This document shows positions 46,121-54,794 of a DNA stretch of 64,000 nucleotides, in pieces. The stretch spans positions 1 to 64,000 of the forward strand of contig UBNQ01000011.1 in the NCBI GenBank assembly GCA_900466875.1, in the 5' to 3' direction. The notes under the pieces are model-generated. The model was not told the origin of the DNA. It made no database searches and was given only the letters and a program-made list of their open reading frames with translations. Position 1 is the stretch's first letter. Each line of letters begins with the position of its first letter. The position numbers and the translations under genes were made by a program. The stretch comes from Hyphomicrobiales bacterium. Its GTDB lineage: Bacteria; Pseudomonadota; Alphaproteobacteria; Rhizobiales; Rhizobiaceae.

Positions 46121-46951
46121 TCAGGCGGCTGCGAAAGCTTGTTTTTCCTGCTCCACCAGGAAGGACAGGTCCTTGGCGAGGCCCGGCGCGCAGGCGACGA
46201 CGGGGCCGCCATGGGCGAGAAGCTGTGCAAGCGGCGGAAGTGCCACCACGGCACCGGCCTCGCGGGCGATCAATGCTGCGGCCAGCATGTCCCAGGCGGA
46301 CAAATGACGTTCGTAATAGAGGTCGGCCACGCCTTCGGCGACGCGGATCAAGCCGATCGCGGCGGCACCCATGCGGCGGTAATCCATGCCGGTTTCGTAA
46401 ATCTGCCGCGAGATGGAGAGATAATCCTCGAAATCGGTTCTGCGGGAATGGCCGAGAATGGCGATGCCACGTGACGGATCGGTCGTCTTTGCCGCCGTAA
46501 TCGGCTTGCCTTCGCGCAGGGCGCCTTCGCCGCGGATCGCACTGAAGACGGCGTTCTGGGTGGCATCATAGATGACGCCGACGAGGATTTCGTCACCGCT
46601 GACGAAGGCGATCGAGACGCCCCAGTGGCGAAAACCGCGAATGAAATTGGTCGTGCCGTCGATCGGGTCGACCACCCATGTGCCGCCGGACGAACCGGAC
46701 CGGCTGGCGCCGCCTTCTTCGCCGAGAAAGGCGTCATCAGGAAACTGCTCGAGAAGCGTTTTGCGGATCGTCTGTTCGGCGCGCTTGTCGGCGACCGTGA
46801 CAAAATCCTGGAGGCCCTTGTTCTCGACTGCGAGCGTTTCCGGCTGGATGTCGGCGCGGAATTTTGCGGTTTCGGTGCCGACATGACGGGCAACGGCGAT
46901 GGCAGCCTCGGCGCGTTTGCGCAGCGCGGATAGATCGAATGGGGATGGCAT
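46121..46951 (-). CDS. inositol monophosphatase family protein
   Basis: This 276-residue Mg-dependent, Li-sensitive-fold phosphatase has the metal-binding Glu in FLGEEGG (about 75-81), WVVDPIDGTTNFIRGF (about 90-105) and AWDMLAAALIAREAGA near the C-terminus. Substrates in the family include inositol-1-phosphate, other sugar phosphates and PAP. It is the last gene of the minus-strand operon, its start overlapping the GDPD-LacI stop by one base (TGATG). The context suggests it dephosphorylates the product of the GDPD domain, comparable to AccG in agrocinopine catabolism. Confidence 0.92.
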   Translation of the reverse strand: MPSPFDLSALRKRAEAAIAVARHVGTETAKFRADIQPETLAVENKGLQDFVTVADKRAEQTIRKTLLEQFPDDAFLGEEGGASRSGSSGGTWVVDPIDGTTNFIRGFRHWGVSIAFVSGDEILVGVIYDATQNAVFSAIRGEGALREGKPITAAKTTDPSRGIAILGHSRRTDFEDYLSISRQIYETGMDYRRMGAAAIGLIRVAEGVADLYYERHLSAWDMLAAALIAREAGAVVALPPLAQLLAHGGPVVACAPGLAKDLSFLVEQEKQAFAAA

Positions 46952-48702
46952 CAGGCACTTCTTCTTTTGATCAATGTGACCGGCGTGAATTCCACGCGGG
47001 CAACGGCATCGGGGTCCAGGATACGGCTGGAGAGGAGATCGATCACCTGTTCCGCCTGGATATCGCAGGGCTGCAGGAAGGTGGTCAGGTCATAGGCGCC
47101 CCAACTGGCCTGGGGGATATCGTCATGGCCGATCACCTTGATCGAGCCATGGTTTCGTCCGGCATCGCCCAGACCATCGAGGACACCGCAGGCCATGTAA
47201 TCGTTGACGGCAAAGATGCCGTTGATGCCGTTGTCGAGCAAGGCTGGCACGATATCACGGCCGTTGCGGTAATCGTTCTGGGCAACGGAGATGTGGGAGA
47301 CTTCCACGCCAAGCGTTTTTGCGCGTGCCAGAAAAGCCTCAGTGCGGCGGCGGGAGGAATAGGAGATCGTTGTGCCGGCGATGACGGCAAGCCGTGTTGC
47401 GCCCGCCTGCAGGAGGTGATCGGCGGCGAGATGGCCGGCATTGTGGTCATCCGACAGGACACGATCGACGAGCGGATAGTCTTCGCCCTTGTTGATCAGC
47501 ACGATCGGGACGCCTTCTGCCGCACATTCCTCACAGATATGCGAGGGAGGCGCATCCGAGGTGACGATCACGCCTGATACCGCATAATGCAGCAACTGGC
47601 CGATGACGGTGGCGCTGTCGGCTTCCTGCGAGGTGGGAAGCAGGATAGGGCGGTAGTTGCGGGCGATCAGCGCGCGCGCCAGATGTTCCACCTGCTGCGT
47701 TCGAAAAGGGTTGTCGAGGCCGGCGGCGACAAGGCCCACGAGATCGGAGCGCTTGTTGGTGAGGCTGCGGGCGAGATAATTGACGCGGTAGCCGAGGTCC
47801 TTGGCGGCCTGATAGACCTTTTCACGGGTCTTTTCCGAAACGCTGGCATCCGGCGTAAACGCGCGGGAGACGGCGGCGCGGGAAACGCCGGCGGCACGTG
47901 CAACATCATGCGAGGTGACGCGTTTTGCCGGGCGATCGTTGCCGTGGTTTTCGCGCGGGCGCATCAGGTCCGGCAGGTTGGTGCAGATGCCGAGCACCGG
48001 TAAAGACATGATGTCGGCGAGGACGTCAGGCCGTTCCTCGTGCCACAGGACGATTTCGCGGCCGTCAGCGAAAGCGCGGGCGATCAATTCATCGGTGACG
48101 AATTCCTGTGGTGTGTCGCTCGCCTTTTCCCAGCACAGATGCAGGATATCGGCCGATGCTTCGTCGCCCATGGCATGGGGATCGGCGCCGACGCGGATCA
48201 GGACGGCGAGCGGATAATCGCAGCCGAGTTCGCGCAGTTCCCGCACCTGTGCCGGATCGAAGGAGCCGAAACAGGCGAAACGCTGCTCCATGTCCTTCAG
48301 GTGTTGCCAGCAGAGCAGGCCGGTGCCGACGCGCTTCAGCTCGATGTAGAGGCCGCAATCCGTTTCGCGTGCAAGGGTTGCCACTTCCTCGAAGCTGGGT
48401 ACCTCCGGGATCGCGGCCCGCAGGTCGGCAAAGGAGAGCTGCGAGATATGCACGTCCTTGCCGAAGACGCGCTCGAGATGATCGTCATGGGAGATCACCA
48501 CGACACCATCGGCAGTCAGTTGCGTGTCGATTTCCCACATGTCGGCACCGAGTTCGGCGGCGCGACGGAAGGCTGCGAGCGTGTTTTCAGTCTCGTGGCC
48601 ACTCGCACCGCGATGACCGATGCAGAAGGGCAGGCGCCCTCTCTGTTCCGGCCAGCCGAAACGGGAAAAGAACGGTGAAAAATCCCTAGCAGAGGTCATC
48701 AT
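46951..48702 (-). CDS. GDPD-LacI fusion: phosphodiesterase plus transcriptional regulator
   Basis: This 583-residue single frame joins two proteins usually separate. Residues about 20-250 are a glycerophosphodiester phosphodiesterase with H30-R31 (HRGASG), E39-N40 (ETENT), E57/D59 (WEIDTQL), H72 (SHDDHL) and K123 (IELKR), all catalytic positions present, ending ICTNLPDLM. Residues about 262-310 are a LacI helix-turn-helix (RVTSHDVARAAGVSRAAVSRAF) and about 320-583 the periplasmic-binding-like effector domain (VNDYMACGVLDGLGDAG, KVIGHDDIPQASW). It starts 10 bases after the ABC ATPase stop. A longer frame to 48852 overlaps that gene and is rejected. Confidence 0.9.
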   Translation of the reverse strand: MMTSARDFSPFFSRFGWPEQRGRLPFCIGHRGASGHETENTLAAFRRAAELGADMWEIDTQLTADGVVVISHDDHLERVFGKDVHISQLSFADLRAAIPEVPSFEEVATLARETDCGLYIELKRVGTGLLCWQHLKDMEQRFACFGSFDPAQVRELRELGCDYPLAVLIRVGADPHAMGDEASADILHLCWEKASDTPQEFVTDELIARAFADGREIVLWHEERPDVLADIMSLPVLGICTNLPDLMRPRENHGNDRPAKRVTSHDVARAAGVSRAAVSRAFTPDASVSEKTREKVYQAAKDLGYRVNYLARSLTNKRSDLVGLVAAGLDNPFRTQQVEHLARALIARNYRPILLPTSQEADSATVIGQLLHYAVSGVIVTSDAPPSHICEECAAEGVPIVLINKGEDYPLVDRVLSDDHNAGHLAADHLLQAGATRLAVIAGTTISYSSRRRTEAFLARAKTLGVEVSHISVAQNDYRNGRDIVPALLDNGINGIFAVNDYMACGVLDGLGDAGRNHGSIKVIGHDDIPQASWGAYDLTTFLQPCDIQAEQVIDLLSSRILDPDAVARVEFTPVTLIKRRSA

Positions 48703-48712
48703 CGTGTCCCCG

Positions 48713-49768
48713 TCAAAGTCTCTGGCCATCGTTAGAGAAGACGAAAGCCGATTTGCTGTCGATAAACCAGCGCACAGGCTCACCAAGTGCCCAGTTTCTC
48801 CCCGCAGGCTGAATCGAGCGCAGGACCGAGCCATCGGCGAGTGCGACGTCATAGAGATTTTCGCGGCCCTGCGTTTCGGCGAAGGCGATTTTGCCTTCCA
48901 CCGCTATGTCGCCTTCGGGACCGAAGTGTTCCGGTCGAACGCCGAGCTTCAACTGCGTGCCATCGGCAATGCCTTCGTGAACGCCGAGCGGAACACGCAG
49001 TTTGATCGGCGCAACGGAGAAGGAATTTTCCATGGCGATGCCGCTGAGGAAGGAGATCGGCGGATTGCCGAGGAAACCGGCGACAAAGGACGTGCGCGGA
49101 TTGCTGTACATGTCGGCAGGGGTATCGATCTGGACGATCTCGCCCTTCTTCATGATGGCGATGCGGTCGCACATCGACATGGCTTCCACCTGGTCGTGGG
49201 TGACCAGAACGGCGGTGATGCCGGTTTCGAGCTGGATACGGCGGATTTCGGAGCGCATTTCCAGCCGCAGTTTCGCGTCGAGATTGGCGAGCGGTTCGTC
49301 GAGAAGCAGGACATCCGGTTTACGCACCAGAGCGCGAGCCAGCGCCACACGCTGCTGCTGGCCCCCCGACAGCTGGCCGGGGCGGCGCTCCAGCAGTTCG
49401 GAAATGTGGGTCAGTGCCGCGATGGCGCGGACTTCGCGATCGATATCGGCCTTGTTGTCCTTCCGGACCGTCAGCGGGAAGGCGATGTTTTCGAAGACGT
49501 TCATGTGCGGGTAGAGCGCATAGTTCTGGAAAACGACGCCGACATTGCGTTTCTGGCTTGGCAGGCCGCTGACGTCGCGGTCGCCGAACATCAGCTGGCC
49601 CCTGTCCATACGGTGAATGCCGCTGATGGTGAACAGCGTCGTCGACTTGCCGCAGCCGGAAGGGCCGAGCAGCGCCAGCATTTCGCCATCGCGGATCGTC
49701 AGGTTCATATCGTCGATGACAGGAGTGCCATCGAATGTCTTGGTGAAATTGTTGATGGAGATCTGCAT
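48713..49768 (-). CDS. sugar/glycerophosphodiester-type ABC transporter ATP-binding protein
   Basis: This 351-residue CUT1 ATPase has Walker A GPSGCGKST (about 35-43), signature LSGGQQQRVALARAL, Walker B VLLLDEPLANLDAK and a C-terminal TOBE region. It is similar in layout to UgpC/MalK. Its start overlaps the stop of the preceding permease by one base. It serves the importer of the phosphodiester operon. Confidence 0.92.
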   Translation of the reverse strand: MQISINNFTKTFDGTPVIDDMNLTIRDGEMLALLGPSGCGKSTTLFTISGIHRMDRGQLMFGDRDVSGLPSQKRNVGVVFQNYALYPHMNVFENIAFPLTVRKDNKADIDREVRAIAALTHISELLERRPGQLSGGQQQRVALARALVRKPDVLLLDEPLANLDAKLRLEMRSEIRRIQLETGITAVLVTHDQVEAMSMCDRIAIMKKGEIVQIDTPADMYSNPRTSFVAGFLGNPPISFLSGIAMENSFSVAPIKLRVPLGVHEGIADGTQLKLGVRPEHFGPEGDIAVEGKIAFAETQGRENLYDVALADGSVLRSIQPAGRNWALGEPVRWFIDSKSAFVFSNDGQRL

Positions 49769-50592
49769 CAGCCTTTGGTGCCCCCGCCGAAAATGTTCAT
49801 GAGACGGTTCTGGAACAGCACGAAAAGTGCGAGCACCGGCAGCGTGTAGAACAGCCCGACCGACTTGAAGATGTTGAAATTATAGGTGCTGGAATTGGGG
49901 TCAGACACCGTGTTGAGATACATGGACAGGACTTCGAAATCGCTGGATGGCGCAAGGATCCGCGGCAGCATGTATTCGCTCCAGCCATCGATGAACGCGA
50001 AGAGTGCGAGCGACAGAAGGCCGGGTTTGACCTGCGGCAGGATGATGCGCCGCCAGACGGTGAAACGGCTTGCGCCATCCTGCACGCCGGCCATCTCGAT
50101 CTCCCACGGAACGGCATCGTAAAAGCCCTTCATGATCCAGATGCCGAAGGGCAGCATCAGGCTGGCCTTGACCAGAATGACGCCGGTCAGGGAATTGTAG
50201 AGACCGGCGAACTGCAGCACGAGGAAAACGCCGATGATCAGCGTGACCGATGGAAAAGCATGCATGACCATGATGCCTGACAGCACGAAACGTCTGAACG
50301 GCAGAGCCAATCGCGAGAGCGCATAACCGGCGGTGGCAGAGACCGAGACGACGATGACCATCATGCTGGAGGCGAAAAGAAACGTCGTCAGCGTCGGTTT
50401 CCACACGTCGCCGGTAATGGTCGGGTCGATGAGGAAACGCCAGTGTTCCAGCGTGAACTCGTTGGGCAGAAGCGAGCCGGGCGCGGTGTTGCTGAACGTG
50501 TCGACCAGCAGGAACAGGTACATGACGAAGAGCGGCAGGCTGAGCACGGTCAAAAGCAGGATGATCGGCCAGGCGGCGAAATTGCGGGTCAT
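49768..50592 (-). CDS. ABC transporter permease (MalG/UgpE type)
   Basis: This 274-residue permease has six hydrophobic segments and the EAA-type motif WEIEMAGVQDGASRFTVWRRIILPQVKPGLL (about 160-190). GGGAGG precedes ATG 50592. It partners the larger permease encoded just upstream and is coupled to the ATPase gene by a one-base overlap. Confidence 0.9.
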   Translation of the reverse strand: MTRNFAAWPIILLLTVLSLPLFVMYLFLLVDTFSNTAPGSLLPNEFTLEHWRFLIDPTITGDVWKPTLTTFLFASSMMVIVVSVSATAGYALSRLALPFRRFVLSGIMVMHAFPSVTLIIGVFLVLQFAGLYNSLTGVILVKASLMLPFGIWIMKGFYDAVPWEIEMAGVQDGASRFTVWRRIILPQVKPGLLSLALFAFIDGWSEYMLPRILAPSSDFEVLSMYLNTVSDPNSSTYNFNIFKSVGLFYTLPVLALFVLFQNRLMNIFGGGTKG

Positions 50593-50604
50593 GGTCGTCC
50601 TCCC

Positions 50605-51927
50605 TTAAAACTCGATCTTCGGCTTCGACATCATCTCGTCAAAACGGAAGAGGCGGAGATAGACGATGGAAAGAACCAGACCGACGGCGACGAGGATCAG
50701 CGCCATGGCGGCACCCAGGCCGTATTGCAGGTTGCCGGTGTAATTGTTGAGCGCGGTCTTGAAGGCTTCGAGCGCCCACACGGTCGTGGTGCTGCCGGGG
50801 CCGCCATTGGTGGTGAGCCAGATCTGCTCGTAGGAGGAGAGAAGCGAGAGTGTCTGGTAACTGGTGACGAACAGTATCGGCCAGCGCATGTGCGGCAGAA
50901 TGATGTAGCGGATCTGCTGCCAGCGCGAGGCGCCGTCCACTTCGCTGGCCCAGAGCTGCTGCACCGGAATGGCTTTCAGCGCGCCGGAAAACAGGATCAT
51001 GCCAAAGGATGCGCCGACAAAACCGTTGACGAGGATGACGACCGTCCAGGCGCTCGCGACCGATCCCTTCATGTAGTTGAAGGCGGGAAGGCCGAGGTCC
51101 TGGGCGATGTTGAAGACGAAACCGTCTTCCCAGGTAAACCACTTCCACATGACGGCATAAAGCACGACCGGGGTGATGCGCGGCAGAAGCCACAAGATGC
51201 TGAAGAAGCCAGAACCTGCGGATGGGAGATAGAAAGTTGTGATGGCCAGAAACAGGCCGACCAGAACGTTGAAGGCAAGGGTCAGCACCACGTAGAAGAC
51301 CGTATTGCCGACGATGCGCCAGGTATCGGGGGCAATAACGAGGTTCTTGAAATTCTCCGTCGTCCAGGTCCAGCCGGTATAGCTTGCGGTTGCGATCTGT
51401 TCGACGGCGCCTTGCGGCGGGTTTTCGAGCATATGCGAAAGTGCCGCCTCCATCTCGCCGCGACTGGCGTAACGCACGTTCAGAACCGATTGCTCGAAGG
51501 CACTGGCGGCGATCTTCAGGTCACGCACACGCGTCGGGCGGGACGGAAGCGTTTTCAGTTCGCGTTCGAAAGCAGACGAGCTGGTGAAGGAGCGATCCTT
51601 GAGCCGTTCACCGATTTCCGTGATGAATTTCGCATCGACGCCGGCGGTGCGAGCCTTTTCCAGCCCCGCCTGATCGATGATGTAGCTCGACTGGCGGAGT
51701 GCCTTGATCGTTTTTGCGTCCAGCCCCTCATCGGTCAGCGACCGCAGAAGGTTGCCTGTGACGACATAGGAGCCGCCGGAAATGCCGGTTGCCGTGCTCA
51801 TGTTGGTGAAAGCGAAGACGCTGGTCAGCACGACCGGCAGAAAGAAGAAGCCGAGAAGCAGAACCATAGCCGGCGTCATGAAAGCCAGGCCGAGAAGATT
51901 TGCCCTGTAAGGCGAAGAGGTGCGCAT
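50605..51927 (-). CDS. ABC transporter permease with large periplasmic insert (MalF type)
   Basis: This 440-residue permease is larger than usual because about 140 residues (about 45-185, hydrophilic, with TDEGLDAKTIKALRQ and FERELKTLPSRPTRVRDLKI) lie between the first membrane helix and the core, resembling the position of the MalF P2 loop. The core carries EVDGASRWQQIRYIILPHMRWPIL as EAA motif. The start ATG 51927 is chosen over 51963 because the latter lies inside a strong hairpin (51953-51976). Confidence 0.88.
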   Translation of the reverse strand: MRTSSPYRANLLGLAFMTPAMVLLLGFFFLPVVLTSVFAFTNMSTATGISGGSYVVTGNLLRSLTDEGLDAKTIKALRQSSYIIDQAGLEKARTAGVDAKFITEIGERLKDRSFTSSSAFERELKTLPSRPTRVRDLKIAASAFEQSVLNVRYASRGEMEAALSHMLENPPQGAVEQIATASYTGWTWTTENFKNLVIAPDTWRIVGNTVFYVVLTLAFNVLVGLFLAITTFYLPSAGSGFFSILWLLPRITPVVLYAVMWKWFTWEDGFVFNIAQDLGLPAFNYMKGSVASAWTVVILVNGFVGASFGMILFSGALKAIPVQQLWASEVDGASRWQQIRYIILPHMRWPILFVTSYQTLSLLSSYEQIWLTTNGGPGSTTTVWALEAFKTALNNYTGNLQYGLGAAMALILVAVGLVLSIVYLRLFRFDEMMSKPKIEF

Positions 51928-51952
51928 GGGAACCTGAAGGTATGCAGAGGAG

Positions 51953-51976
51953 CCGGGCGGCATTTGCGCCGCCCGG
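51953..51976 (-). other. intercistronic hairpin after the binding-protein gene
   Basis: CCGGGCGGC, loop of 6, GCCGCCCGG: a perfect 9-bp stem between the substrate-binding protein stop and the MalF-type permease start. This placement is typical for keeping binding-protein mRNA more abundant than permease mRNA. Confidence 0.6.
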
Positions 51977-51989
51977 TGGATGGATGGGA

Positions 51990-53345
51990 TCAGCGAATGA
52001 CAATCTTGTCGCCGAGTGCGTTGCGCACTTCCGTCTCGACCGCCTTGACGGCATCGGCGACGGAGTTGGTCTTGGTCCAGGAGGCTTCAAGCCCCTTGTA
52101 CATGGCCTTCCAGACGATGCCGAAATCGCTGTTGTTGGGGATGGCGTTTGCCTTCGGCAGCAGGCCTTCGGTGGCAACCGTCGTCCAGCGGTCGTTGGCA
52201 TAGAAGGGGATCGTCGCCTCGGCCGAACCGATGGCAAGATGGCCCGACTTCACTGCGTGAAGTGCATTGATATAGGGCTCGGATGCCGTGGTGATCAACT
52301 CGGCTGCGAGCGTCGCATCCTCATCCGAACCGCCGGTCGACAGGAGATAGACGAGCGGATGCGTGATCGTGTTGGCGCGGCCCTTTTCGTTGCCGGCCGG
52401 GATCAGGCTGTATTGCATCTGGCCGAAGAAGTCCTTCAGGCCCCACTTGGCTTCCCATTCGGCCTTGTGCCAGGTGCCGCCGTGCCAGATGCCGGCCTTG
52501 TCGCCGGCGACAGCCTGGTGCCAGGTATCCCAGGTCATGCCGAGATAGGTGGCCGGAACGACGCCCTTTTCAACCGCGTCGACGAAGAACTGGTACATGC
52601 CGGTCAGCGCCTGACGGTCGAGCACCAGCTTGCCGGATTCCGCGTCGACCATCTCGCCGCCAAAACTCTGGTAGAACTGCCAGTAGTCGGTGCCGTTGTT
52701 CGGGCGCGGCATAAAGCCCTTGCCCGGTTCGACCACCTTGGCATCCTGCATCTTCTTTGCGTCGTCGAGCATGGAGTAGAGCGTGTATTCGCCACTTTCG
52801 ACCTTGGCCGGCAGCGCTTCGATATCGGCATCCGAATAACCGATCGCCTTCAGATGCGACTTGGAGAAGAAGAAGGGACGCGCCTCGGCATCCTGCGGAA
52901 TGCCCCAGATGCGGCCGTCATAGGAGGAGACGTCGATCAGATTGGGGTAGAGCTGGTTGAGTGGCCAAGCGTCGAAATCCACATAGTCCTCGATCGGGCG
53001 CAGAAGGCCGGACTGCGACCAGGGGCCGATATCCTCGTGGCCGGACACGATAATGTTCGGCGCCTTGCCGGATTCGGCGGCCAGCGTCACAGCCTGCTTG
53101 AAATCGTCCCAACCGGTCCAGGCCTGGGATTCGATCTTGATGGTGAGGTCTTCGCCGCGGATCTTTGCCTGACGCGAGACGACGTCGGCAGCCATCTTGA
53201 TGGCCTCGATACGGTAATCATTGGTCGGGCCGGTGCCGCCGGCCCAGACTGAGATGGTGACATCCTTGGCCATGGCGAAGGTTGCTGTCGACGCCAGCAG
53301 GGCTGTCGCCAGGATGGCGGATTTGAAACGCGGAAGTACGGTCAT
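51990..53345 (-). CDS. ABC transporter substrate-binding protein
   Basis: This 451-residue periplasmic binding protein of family 1 has a signal peptide (FKSAILATALLASTATFAMAKD, cleavage about 26). The mature domain has ISVWAGGTGPTNDYRIEAIK and IWGIPQDAEARPFFFSKSHLKAIGYSD. It is the first gene of the minus-strand operon binding protein-permease-permease-ATPase-GDPD/LacI-phosphatase. The ligand is unknown; a phosphodiester is inferred from the enzymes. The LacI-type palindrome at 53474 is about 130 bases upstream. Confidence 0.92.
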   Translation of the reverse strand: MTVLPRFKSAILATALLASTATFAMAKDVTISVWAGGTGPTNDYRIEAIKMAADVVSRQAKIRGEDLTIKIESQAWTGWDDFKQAVTLAAESGKAPNIIVSGHEDIGPWSQSGLLRPIEDYVDFDAWPLNQLYPNLIDVSSYDGRIWGIPQDAEARPFFFSKSHLKAIGYSDADIEALPAKVESGEYTLYSMLDDAKKMQDAKVVEPGKGFMPRPNNGTDYWQFYQSFGGEMVDAESGKLVLDRQALTGMYQFFVDAVEKGVVPATYLGMTWDTWHQAVAGDKAGIWHGGTWHKAEWEAKWGLKDFFGQMQYSLIPAGNEKGRANTITHPLVYLLSTGGSDEDATLAAELITTASEPYINALHAVKSGHLAIGSAEATIPFYANDRWTTVATEGLLPKANAIPNNSDFGIVWKAMYKGLEASWTKTNSVADAVKAVETEVRNALGDKIVIR

Positions 53346-53473
53346 GACTTATCCCCGATAAGCGATCTCGCTTCCTCCGCGGCCGGTCGCATGCAGTGTT
53401 ATCCGGGCGGGAAAGCGAGGAGTTGATCCTGAACGAGGCGGACCTTAGGAGCGCTCCACAACAGAGAGATGAC

Positions 53474-53495
53474 AAAATGTACACGTGTACATTTT
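53474..53495 (-). promoter_or_regulatory. 22-bp perfect palindrome, LacI-family operator candidate
   Basis: The half-site AAAATGTACAC is followed directly by its exact reverse complement, giving a symmetric site with central CG, as LacI-family operators have. It lies in the divergent region between the importer operon (minus) and the S58 peptidase (plus), and the nearest LacI-type gene is the GDPD-LacI fusion in that operon. Confidence 0.75.
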
Positions 53496-53744
53496 TTATT
53501 TTTGGCGCAGGTTTTGGCCCAATCACCGGCGTTGGGTCTCATGCCGGAGCGCTCAAGGTTGGGATGGTTGACGTGCAGAAGGCGTGGAGAGCGCCTTCTC
53601 TTATCTGTCCCGCCAAGTGAGTCACGGCGCATCTTTGGCCTTATGTTCTCTTGCAAAGGCGGTCTGAAACTATTCTGTTTTTGTTGTGCCGGTTCGGAGC
53701 GGCCTGAAGTAGTCTTCGGTCACCTTGAAGACCGGAACCATTCA
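53496..53744. other. divergent intergenic region, right part
   Basis: These 249 bases precede the S58 peptidase. They hold one hairpin (AGAAGGCG/CGCCTTCT, 53577-53599) of unclear role. The open plus-strand frame from 53469 reads through the operator and is not taken as coding. Confidence 0.4.
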
Positions 53745-54794
53745 ATGACCAGCGAACATCGTGCGCGCCTGCGTGATCTCGGCATATCCATCGGCCATTA
53801 CGAGACCGGTGCGCTCAATGCGATCACCGATGTCGCGGGCGTTGCCGTCGGCCATGTGACCTGCGTCGAAGGCGAGCGGACGCGCACGGGTGCTACGGCC
53901 ATCCTGCCGCATTCCGGCAATCTGTTTCAGGACAAGGTGCCGGCAGCACTCGCCGTGTTCAACGGTTTTGGCAAGTTTGCCGGCTCCACGCAGATTGCCG
54001 AGCTTGGCGAGATCGAGACGCCGATCCTCTTGACCAACACGCTCGGTGTCGGCCGTGCCATCGAGGCGATCAATCGGCATGTGCTGGCGCAAGCTGGTAA
54101 CGAGCGCGTCGTGTCGCTCAATGCCGTTGTCGGCGAGACCAATGATTCCCGGTTGAACGATATTCGCGCTGCCCGTCCGAGCGTGGATGAAATGACGGCG
54201 GCGCTTACTGCTGCCAAGACCGGGCCGGTCGAGGAAGGTGCGGTCGGTGCCGGCACCGGTACGGTTGCTTTCGGCCTGAAGGGCGGGATCGGCACGAGTT
54301 CGCGTGTCGTGAAGGCCGGCGGCACGGACTATACGGTCGGTGTGCTGGTTCAGTCCAATTACGGCGGCAAGCTGATGGTGGCCGGCAAGCCCTATGAGGC
54401 GGAAGGGGCGCATGACAAGGACGGCTCGATCGTGATGATCGTTGCGACCGATGCGCCGCTTTGCTCGCGGAACCTGAAGCGTCTTGCCGAGCGTTGTTTT
54501 GGTGGTCTTGCCCGCACGGGGGCTGCGCTTAGCAATGGCTCGGGCGATTATGCGTTGGCGTTTTCCACTGCCGAGGAGGTGCGCCGGACGCCCGCGCGCC
54601 GCAAGGCAGTCGCCAACTATCCGGTTCTCTCCAATGATGTCGTCTCGCCGCTCTTCGAAGCTGTGATCGAGGCTGCCGAGGAAGCGATCCTCAATTCGAT
54701 GACGATGGCGGTGACCACCCATGGCTACAATGCCGGGACGGACAAGCCTTCCACCATCCATGCCATTTCTCTCGACGCTCTCAAGCGTCGCTAA
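53745..54794 (+). CDS. P1/S58 family aminopeptidase (DmpA/BapA type)
   Basis: This 349-residue N-terminal-nucleophile aminopeptidase is expected to self-cleave before S228 (HDKDG-S-IVMIVATD), making alpha and beta chains with Ser as new N-terminus. Conserved parts include GISIGHYETGALNAITDVAGVAVGHVT, LLTNTLGVGRA, ETNDSRLNDI and NGSGDYALAFST. Such enzymes release N-terminal L- or D-residues or beta-amino acids from peptides and amides. ATG 53745 is chosen because homology begins there. It is followed at 24 bases by a D-amino acid aminotransferase. Confidence 0.92.
   Translation: MTSEHRARLRDLGISIGHYETGALNAITDVAGVAVGHVTCVEGERTRTGATAILPHSGNLFQDKVPAALAVFNGFGKFAGSTQIAELGEIETPILLTNTLGVGRAIEAINRHVLAQAGNERVVSLNAVVGETNDSRLNDIRAARPSVDEMTAALTAAKTGPVEEGAVGAGTGTVAFGLKGGIGTSSRVVKAGGTDYTVGVLVQSNYGGKLMVAGKPYEAEGAHDKDGSIVMIVATDAPLCSRNLKRLAERCFGGLARTGAALSNGSGDYALAFSTAEEVRRTPARRKAVANYPVLSNDVVSPLFEAVIEAAEEAILNSMTMAVTTHGYNAGTDKPSTIHAISLDALKRR

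Follow-up and report, generated by a model that had tools for sequence, protein, structure and literature searches.

A GDPD-type phosphodiesterase domain joined to a LacI-family repressor in a rhizobial operon predicted to take up and break down phosphodiesters

Can an enzyme and the repressor of its operon be a single protein, and would their joining tie catalysis to transcription? A 64,000-nucleotide stretch of Rhizobiaceae DNA (the window, taken at its full length) raises this question. A preliminary description of it had proposed, from an uninterrupted 583-residue frame, a glycerophosphodiester phosphodiesterase (GDPD) fused to a LacI-family regulator, in which substrate hydrolysis could be coupled directly to de-repression. 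We found a single unbroken open reading frame of 583 codons plus stop, on the minus strand, which the earlier account had not named (Table 1). Its ATG, at 48702, lies 10 nucleotides past the stop codon of an ABC transporter ATPase gene and is preceded by a GGGGA-like Shine-Dalgarno (SD) sequence. The encoded protein comprises a GDPD domain, a flexible linker, a LacI helix-turn-helix (HTH) and a LacI sensor, in that order. PF03009 (GDPD) matched residues 30–245 (E = 2e-27; 97.2 bits against a gathering cut-off of 23.6), PF00356 matched the HTH at residues 265–308 (E = 4e-13), and the sensor was matched by Peripla_BP_1 (PF00532, residues 321–523) and Peripla_BP_3 (PF13377, residues 427–582). The HTH and sensor domains all scored above the Pfam cut-offs, which places the C-terminal half in the LacI/GalR family and bears out the full HTH and sensor first claimed for it.

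An AlphaFold2 model, built from an alignment of 62 rows, had a mean pLDDT of 87.8 and a pTM of 0.49. pLDDT fell below 50 at residues 251–259 and 308–317; such a profile is expected for well-folded domains held by loose tethers. LacI-family repressors were the best fold matches to the model, with RbsR first, and RbsR was also the best NCBIfam and solved-sequence match for the LacI half. No GDPD structures appeared among the 50 fold matches listed, which were ordered by E-value, and the GDPD assignment therefore relies on sequence; the N-terminal part aligns with solved GDPD chains. Judged by these matches, the 583-residue product genuinely consists of two parts: a GDPD-type phosphodiesterase of the cytoplasm, followed by a LacI-family repressor.

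Table 1. Positions of the features discussed, in window coordinates unless a locus is named.
Feature	Coordinates	Strand	Evidence or remark
GDPD-LacI fusion gene, 583 aa	46951..48702	minus	ORF, Pfam; 24 distinct fused sequences, window included
Fusion gene stop codon	46951-46953	minus	
GDPD catalytic domain, residues 30-245	47968..48615	minus	PF03009; catalytic residues invariant 88/88
Interdomain linker, residues 246-262	47917..47967	minus	differs among relatives; AlphaFold2 pLDDT <50 at 251-259
LacI HTH and hinge, residues 263-310	47773..47916	minus	PF00356; median dN/dS 0.038
LacI-type effector-binding (sensor) domain, residues 311-583	46954..47772	minus	PF00532/PF13377; top fold match RbsR 9ny7
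IMPase-family (inositol-monophosphatase) phosphatase	46121..46951	minus	PF00459; start overlaps fusion stop as TGATG
ABC transporter ATPase, UgpC/MalK type	48713..49768	minus	Pfam, NCBIfam
ABC permease 2	49768..50592	minus	best NCBIfam match MalG
ABC permease 1, 452 aa	50605..51963	minus	best NCBIfam match MalF
Periplasmic solute-binding protein (SBP)	51990..53345	minus	SBP_bac_1
22-bp perfect palindrome, presumed operator	53474..53495	none	AAAATGTACAC/GTGTACATTTT
Neorhizobium plasmid records with broken fused frame	L103:3001-4742, L154:1001-2747		

Every GDPD catalytic residue that the preliminary description expected was found: H30, R31, E39-N40-T41, E57, D59, H72-D73, E121 and K123, forming the pattern HR...EN...E-x-D...HD...E-x-K, which we take to be the catalytic and metal residues of GDPD enzymes. 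They were invariant in all 88 homologous GDPD sequences (24 fused and 64 unfused). Within the fused clade, median dN/dS was 0.114 for the GDPD domain, 0.038 for the HTH, 0.122 for the sensor and 0.41 for the linker (16 fused sequences; 120, 116, 120 and 107 pairs, respectively), values that are rough because the dS medians are near 1. By this measure both halves of the fused protein are under purifying selection, and the linker is relaxed. A GDPD domain inactive in all homologues, an objection anticipated earlier, is contradicted at the level of sequence by the residues and by the median dN/dS of 0.11, and the domain is predicted to be active; we infer its catalysis and the class of its substrate from sequence. 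Glycerophosphoinositol was rejected as the definite substrate: the pointer to it is the name of the IMPase family, and a literature search returned nothing relevant.

A peptide-pattern scan of 84,980 genomes returned 89 relatives, 80 of them kept as 78 loci, and a whole-genome search (60 relatives) showed that 14 of the 36 genomes belonging to the window's own genus, the window's among them, carry a full-length fused gene. Both domains were present in 90 of the 100 loci collected, 36 of them fused and 54 split (duplicates between two sources included); the remaining ten were five with LacI only, three with GDPD but without a full LacI (L092, L095 and L098), and two outside the table of loci (L099 and L100). 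Counting the window's own genome each time, fused genes occurred in 12 of 297 genomes of the family (at E 1e-70), 2 of 385 of the class and 4 of 398 of the phylum (both at 1e-60), and in these three samples they were confined to the window's own genus; two fused records from the peptide-pattern scan are named Ensifer, as recorded (L031 and L034). These searches cover relatives of the window's protein, and unrelated GDPD-LacI fusions lie beyond their reach. Altogether there were 24 distinct unbroken fused sequences, window included, which rule out a sequencing error or a frameshift hiding two genes, the other objection foreseen. The 60 records listed by a plasmid search included six from Neorhizobium plasmids; in two of these six the fused frame was broken, near residues 291 and 404–410 in EC2-8 and near residues 283–290 in VafX2. 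These fall in the LacI half, away from the junction, and are compatible with decay or with sequencing error.

Elsewhere the two domains are encoded by separate genes, which overlap in most cases; this holds for the Rhizobium etli/leguminosarum group, for Devosia and for the outgroups examined. The GDPD gene extends several codons beyond the LacI start in the R. etli/leguminosarum group, the overlap measures 17 nt in R. johnstonii, and an ATGA is common to the two genes in Devosia (L089/L091) and in G040; some other split genomes (e.g. L125) have a gap of a few to about 20 bases, by script-picked starts. In a tree of 85 LacI halves, drawn by a quick method and with long outgroup branches, all 24 fused sequences formed one clade (SH-aLRT 98) and every outgroup was split, implying one change. 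On this tree the fusion is a derived state with a single origin among the sequences compared, and it arose from a GDPD gene and an adjacent LacI gene, which probably already overlapped.

The surrounding gene order is shared well beyond the fused clade. SBP, permease, permease, ATPase, GDPD, LacI and IMPase-type phosphatase followed one another in almost every locus of sufficient length, with conservation in Rhizobium, Neorhizobium, Pseudorhizobium and Devosia loci and in nine further genome stretches. The exceptions were L098, which has the GDPD gene with the operon absent, L095, at a contig end, and L092, a decayed operon with the GDPD gene retained, a short LacI remnant and no phosphatase match; a phosphatase match was likewise missing from L065 and L120. 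The GDPD gene of five distant genomes (L015/L121, L120, L122, L123 and L124) encodes a double GDPD (one was tested by Pfam and gave two stretches); the second domain (D2) is absent from the fused lineage, which keeps the first (D1). The operon very probably performs phosphodiester uptake and breakdown.

Within these loci the transporter block fell into two types, which disagree with the relationships of GDPD and LacI (49768–53345 against 46121–48702 in the window; L121, L122, L091 and L033 against L026 and L058). The SBP and permeases of L121 were 70–82% identical to those of the window, and its GDPD, LacI and IMPase 49, 44 and 33%; for L026 the corresponding values were 50–59% and 80, 80 and 72%. 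The transporter block seems to have been exchanged. Beyond the phosphatase, L101 (7320–8177) and many Rhizobium loci at the same place carry a second GDPD-family gene, low in score, convergent and with no HRG motif; the window's phosphatase instead adjoins the binding-protein gene of another ABC operon. A further cluster in the window's own genome (C49:17500–22500; L136/L138) holds a MalK-type ATPase, two GDPD genes and an IMPase.

The palindrome at 53474, to which the preliminary description expected the protein to bind, is real and 22 bp long. Its core, TGYACRCGYGTRCA, is conserved upstream of the SBP gene: with up to two mismatches allowed, all 84 distinct promoters (the window's excluded) carried it no more than 300 bp upstream of the SBP start. 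Of these sites 31 were exact, 2 had one mismatch and 51 had two, the last being a Rhizobium variant with the core TGCACACGTGCTCA or near it. The pattern was defined once these promoters had already been inspected, and its support therefore rests on the controls (no occurrence in 84 coding stretches and a rate of 1.4% in simple block shuffles) and on the sites lying at similar positions. The window's 5.6 Mb genome contains one exact core site and one more at one mismatch, and a reversed-pattern control also found one site at one mismatch in the same genome; the presumed repressor thus most likely serves the window's operon alone. A simple scan of 53300–53760 recognised no sigma-70-type promoter. 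A CG-centred palindrome in the promoter of the regulator's own operon fits the LacI/GalR family, and we presume it to be the operator; that the LacI half represses the operon through this site is highly probable.

These observations can be assembled into a model. With substrate absent, the LacI half would bind the palindrome and the operon would be repressed. The ABC importer would take up a sugar or polyol phosphodiester, which the GDPD half would cleave to a phosphorylated sugar or polyol and an alcohol. The phosphorylated product would then bind the LacI half and release it from DNA, and the IMPase-family enzyme would strip the phosphate, which would both supply catabolism and terminate the signal. 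On balance, we favour reading the fused protein as a bifunctional autorepressor whose operon takes up and breaks down sugar or polyol phosphodiesters. Whether the LacI half has the GDPD product, as opposed to the diester, for its effector appears to us evenly poised. It is unlikely that the protein is a repressor making its own inducer, with the GDPD half generating the phosphorylated effector beside the LacI sensor; if it were, de-repression would report local catalytic flux and not the bulk pool, and the downstream phosphatase would be the off-switch. We are equally doubtful that the fusion itself adds coupling beyond a fixed 1:1 stoichiometry. The coupling of hydrolysis to de-repression first proposed is thus plausible in one part, inasmuch as the enzyme's product is the repressor's effector in the acc system, according to an excerpt of PMC4526662, but the fusion is unneeded for it, as 54 of the 90 two-domain loci are split with the same operon.

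How, then, is the fusion to be explained? Co-translated neighbours may have been merged neutrally by a small indel, leaving the halves independent on a flexible tether and gaining equal amounts only. Such a merger of overlapping genes accounts for the fusion equally well as a hand-off in the fused protein, and it has in our judgement about an even chance of being correct. The overlap in most split relatives eases fusion, the linker is short, variable in length, lax at a dN/dS of 0.41 and disordered in the AlphaFold2 model, and fused and split loci have a similar operator; the retention of the same operon by split loci and the breakage of some fused copies also argue against coupling. Since relatives manage with split genes, the fusion is dispensable for the system. 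Against neutrality stands the lack of any split sequence inside the fused clade of 24, a weak argument, as reversal needs several changes.

A different question is what the LacI half senses. It could respond to the intact diester or to the final free sugar or polyol, the GDPD half then being merely catabolic; we regard this as a real possibility, though somewhat improbable. Many LacI proteins sense unphosphorylated sugars, and the closest fold match of the LacI half, RbsR, is ribose-bound, both of which favour such sensing. It is disfavoured by the closest LacI paralogue (L151, own genome C50:2000–18000), which clusters with an IMPase, an SBP_bac_11 protein, a double permease and an ATPase, a set that we assume is perhaps a sugar-phosphate importer, and by the functionally parallel acc system, which senses the cleavage product (excerpt of PMC4526662). 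In the pocket region, the basic residues R334 and K405 are invariant in 85 of 85 sensors; other LacI proteins have R at 405 in 11 of 17 cases and R or K at 334 in 4 of 17, and we rejected the pair as proof of a phosphorylated (anionic) effector, as unspecific.

The fused frame might also give, from an internal start, a free LacI repressor, made alongside the full-length protein or in its place. At split LacI starts, SD pairing averaged −6.4 kcal/mol (n = 53; the best candidate start was used, which favours stronger pairing), as against −3.0 kcal/mol at the nearest in-frame internal ATGs of fused genes (n = 24), a value equal to the in-frame background (−3.1 kcal/mol, n = 5112). The window's sole nearby in-frame ATG, M247, pairs weakly (−3.2 kcal/mol) and belongs to an L/M-M-R motif that 6 of the 7 unfused GDPD proteins shown (not L089) carry at their C-terminus, outside the LacI frame; motif and background-level pairing together rule out M247 as a relic LacI start in the window. 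Four N. galegae-type genes (L007, L009, L027 and L090) have an SD-like GAGGGA/GAAGGA ahead of an in-frame ATG near the junction, so that these genes may yield an additional internal product. The PLSDB gene table for one fused relative (L102:11986–13737) begins LacI at an internal ATG and leaves the GDPD unlisted, the frame being open throughout; this table is incomplete, a locus-tag number being missing at the GDPD position. Taken together, these data make a free repressor from an internal start very improbable.

Among open-access papers, searched by titles and abstract starts with subscription papers outside the search, we found no prior description of a GDPD-LacI fusion. The locus offers a natural before-and-after pair, with the same operon and domains and a similar operator, fused in one clade and split in relatives. 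It makes testable a question of long standing, whether the joining of enzyme and repressor alters the switching of a pathway whose repressor senses the enzyme's product.

The bifunctional autorepressor that we favour has its nearest functional parallel in acc, the agrocinopine operon (AccR, AccA-E, AccF and AccG) carried on Ti/opine plasmids of agrobacteria. According to an excerpt of PMC4526662, AccF cuts agrocinopine; the ligand of the repressor AccR is the product, arabinose-2-phosphate, rather than agrocinopine itself, and agrocinopine fails to induce an accF mutant. The opine-catabolic plasmid compared carries an ACC region, as stated in part of PMC6546132. The acc-type cluster of pOC-Colt5.8 comprises a DeoR regulator, an SBP_bac_5 protein, ABC parts, two GDPDs and an IMPase, the names accR, accA, accF and accG being given by position and by that ACC-region statement. 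AccF-type enzymes matched D2 of the distant double GDPDs at 32–53% over 105–192 aa (81–113 bits), D1 of the same proteins at 49–61 bits among the matches listed, and the window's GDPD, a D1, at 27–31% identity (65–74 bits). The window's phosphatase was 34% identical over 216 aa to the AccG-position phosphatase and was a better AccG-type match than the one other own-genome IMPase compared (2 of the 10 own-genome IMPase hits entered this comparison). Like the window's operon, acc unites a repressor, a binding protein, an ABC importer, one or more GDPDs and an IMPase-family phosphatase in one cluster. However, its AccR is of the DeoR type and its AccA of the SBP_bac_5 type, whereas the window has SBP_bac_1 and a LacI repressor that is fused to the enzyme. 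The different regulator and binding-protein families make the analogy a functional one: by this comparison the window's operon would work like acc and is not an acc operon. We read it as a parallel system for phosphodiester uptake whose enzyme and repressor have become one protein, and the resemblance suggests a wider class of rhizobial phosphodiester-uptake systems.

Other known systems share single aspects. Ugp (UgpB-A-E-C with UgpQ) is alike in its UgpC-like ATPase (the best NCBIfam match), its importer class and its GDPD, but the window's proteins score 354 of the 432 bits set as the NCBIfam cut-off for UgpC and 37 of 297 for UgpE, and Ugp is controlled by phosphate starvation and is not known to include a LacI or an IMPase. 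LacI/GalR repressors such as RbsR have the complete HTH, hinge and sensor of the fusion, without the catalytic domain of about 250 residues ahead of the HTH. An enzyme-type domain and a DNA-binding function also share one polypeptide in enzyme-derived regulators such as NadR, BirA and the "trigger enzymes." The same is true of BzdR, in which, as described in part of PMC3602430, the enzyme-like domain is itself the sensor; the GDPD-LacI protein, in contrast, has a complete LacI sensor and a complete enzyme.
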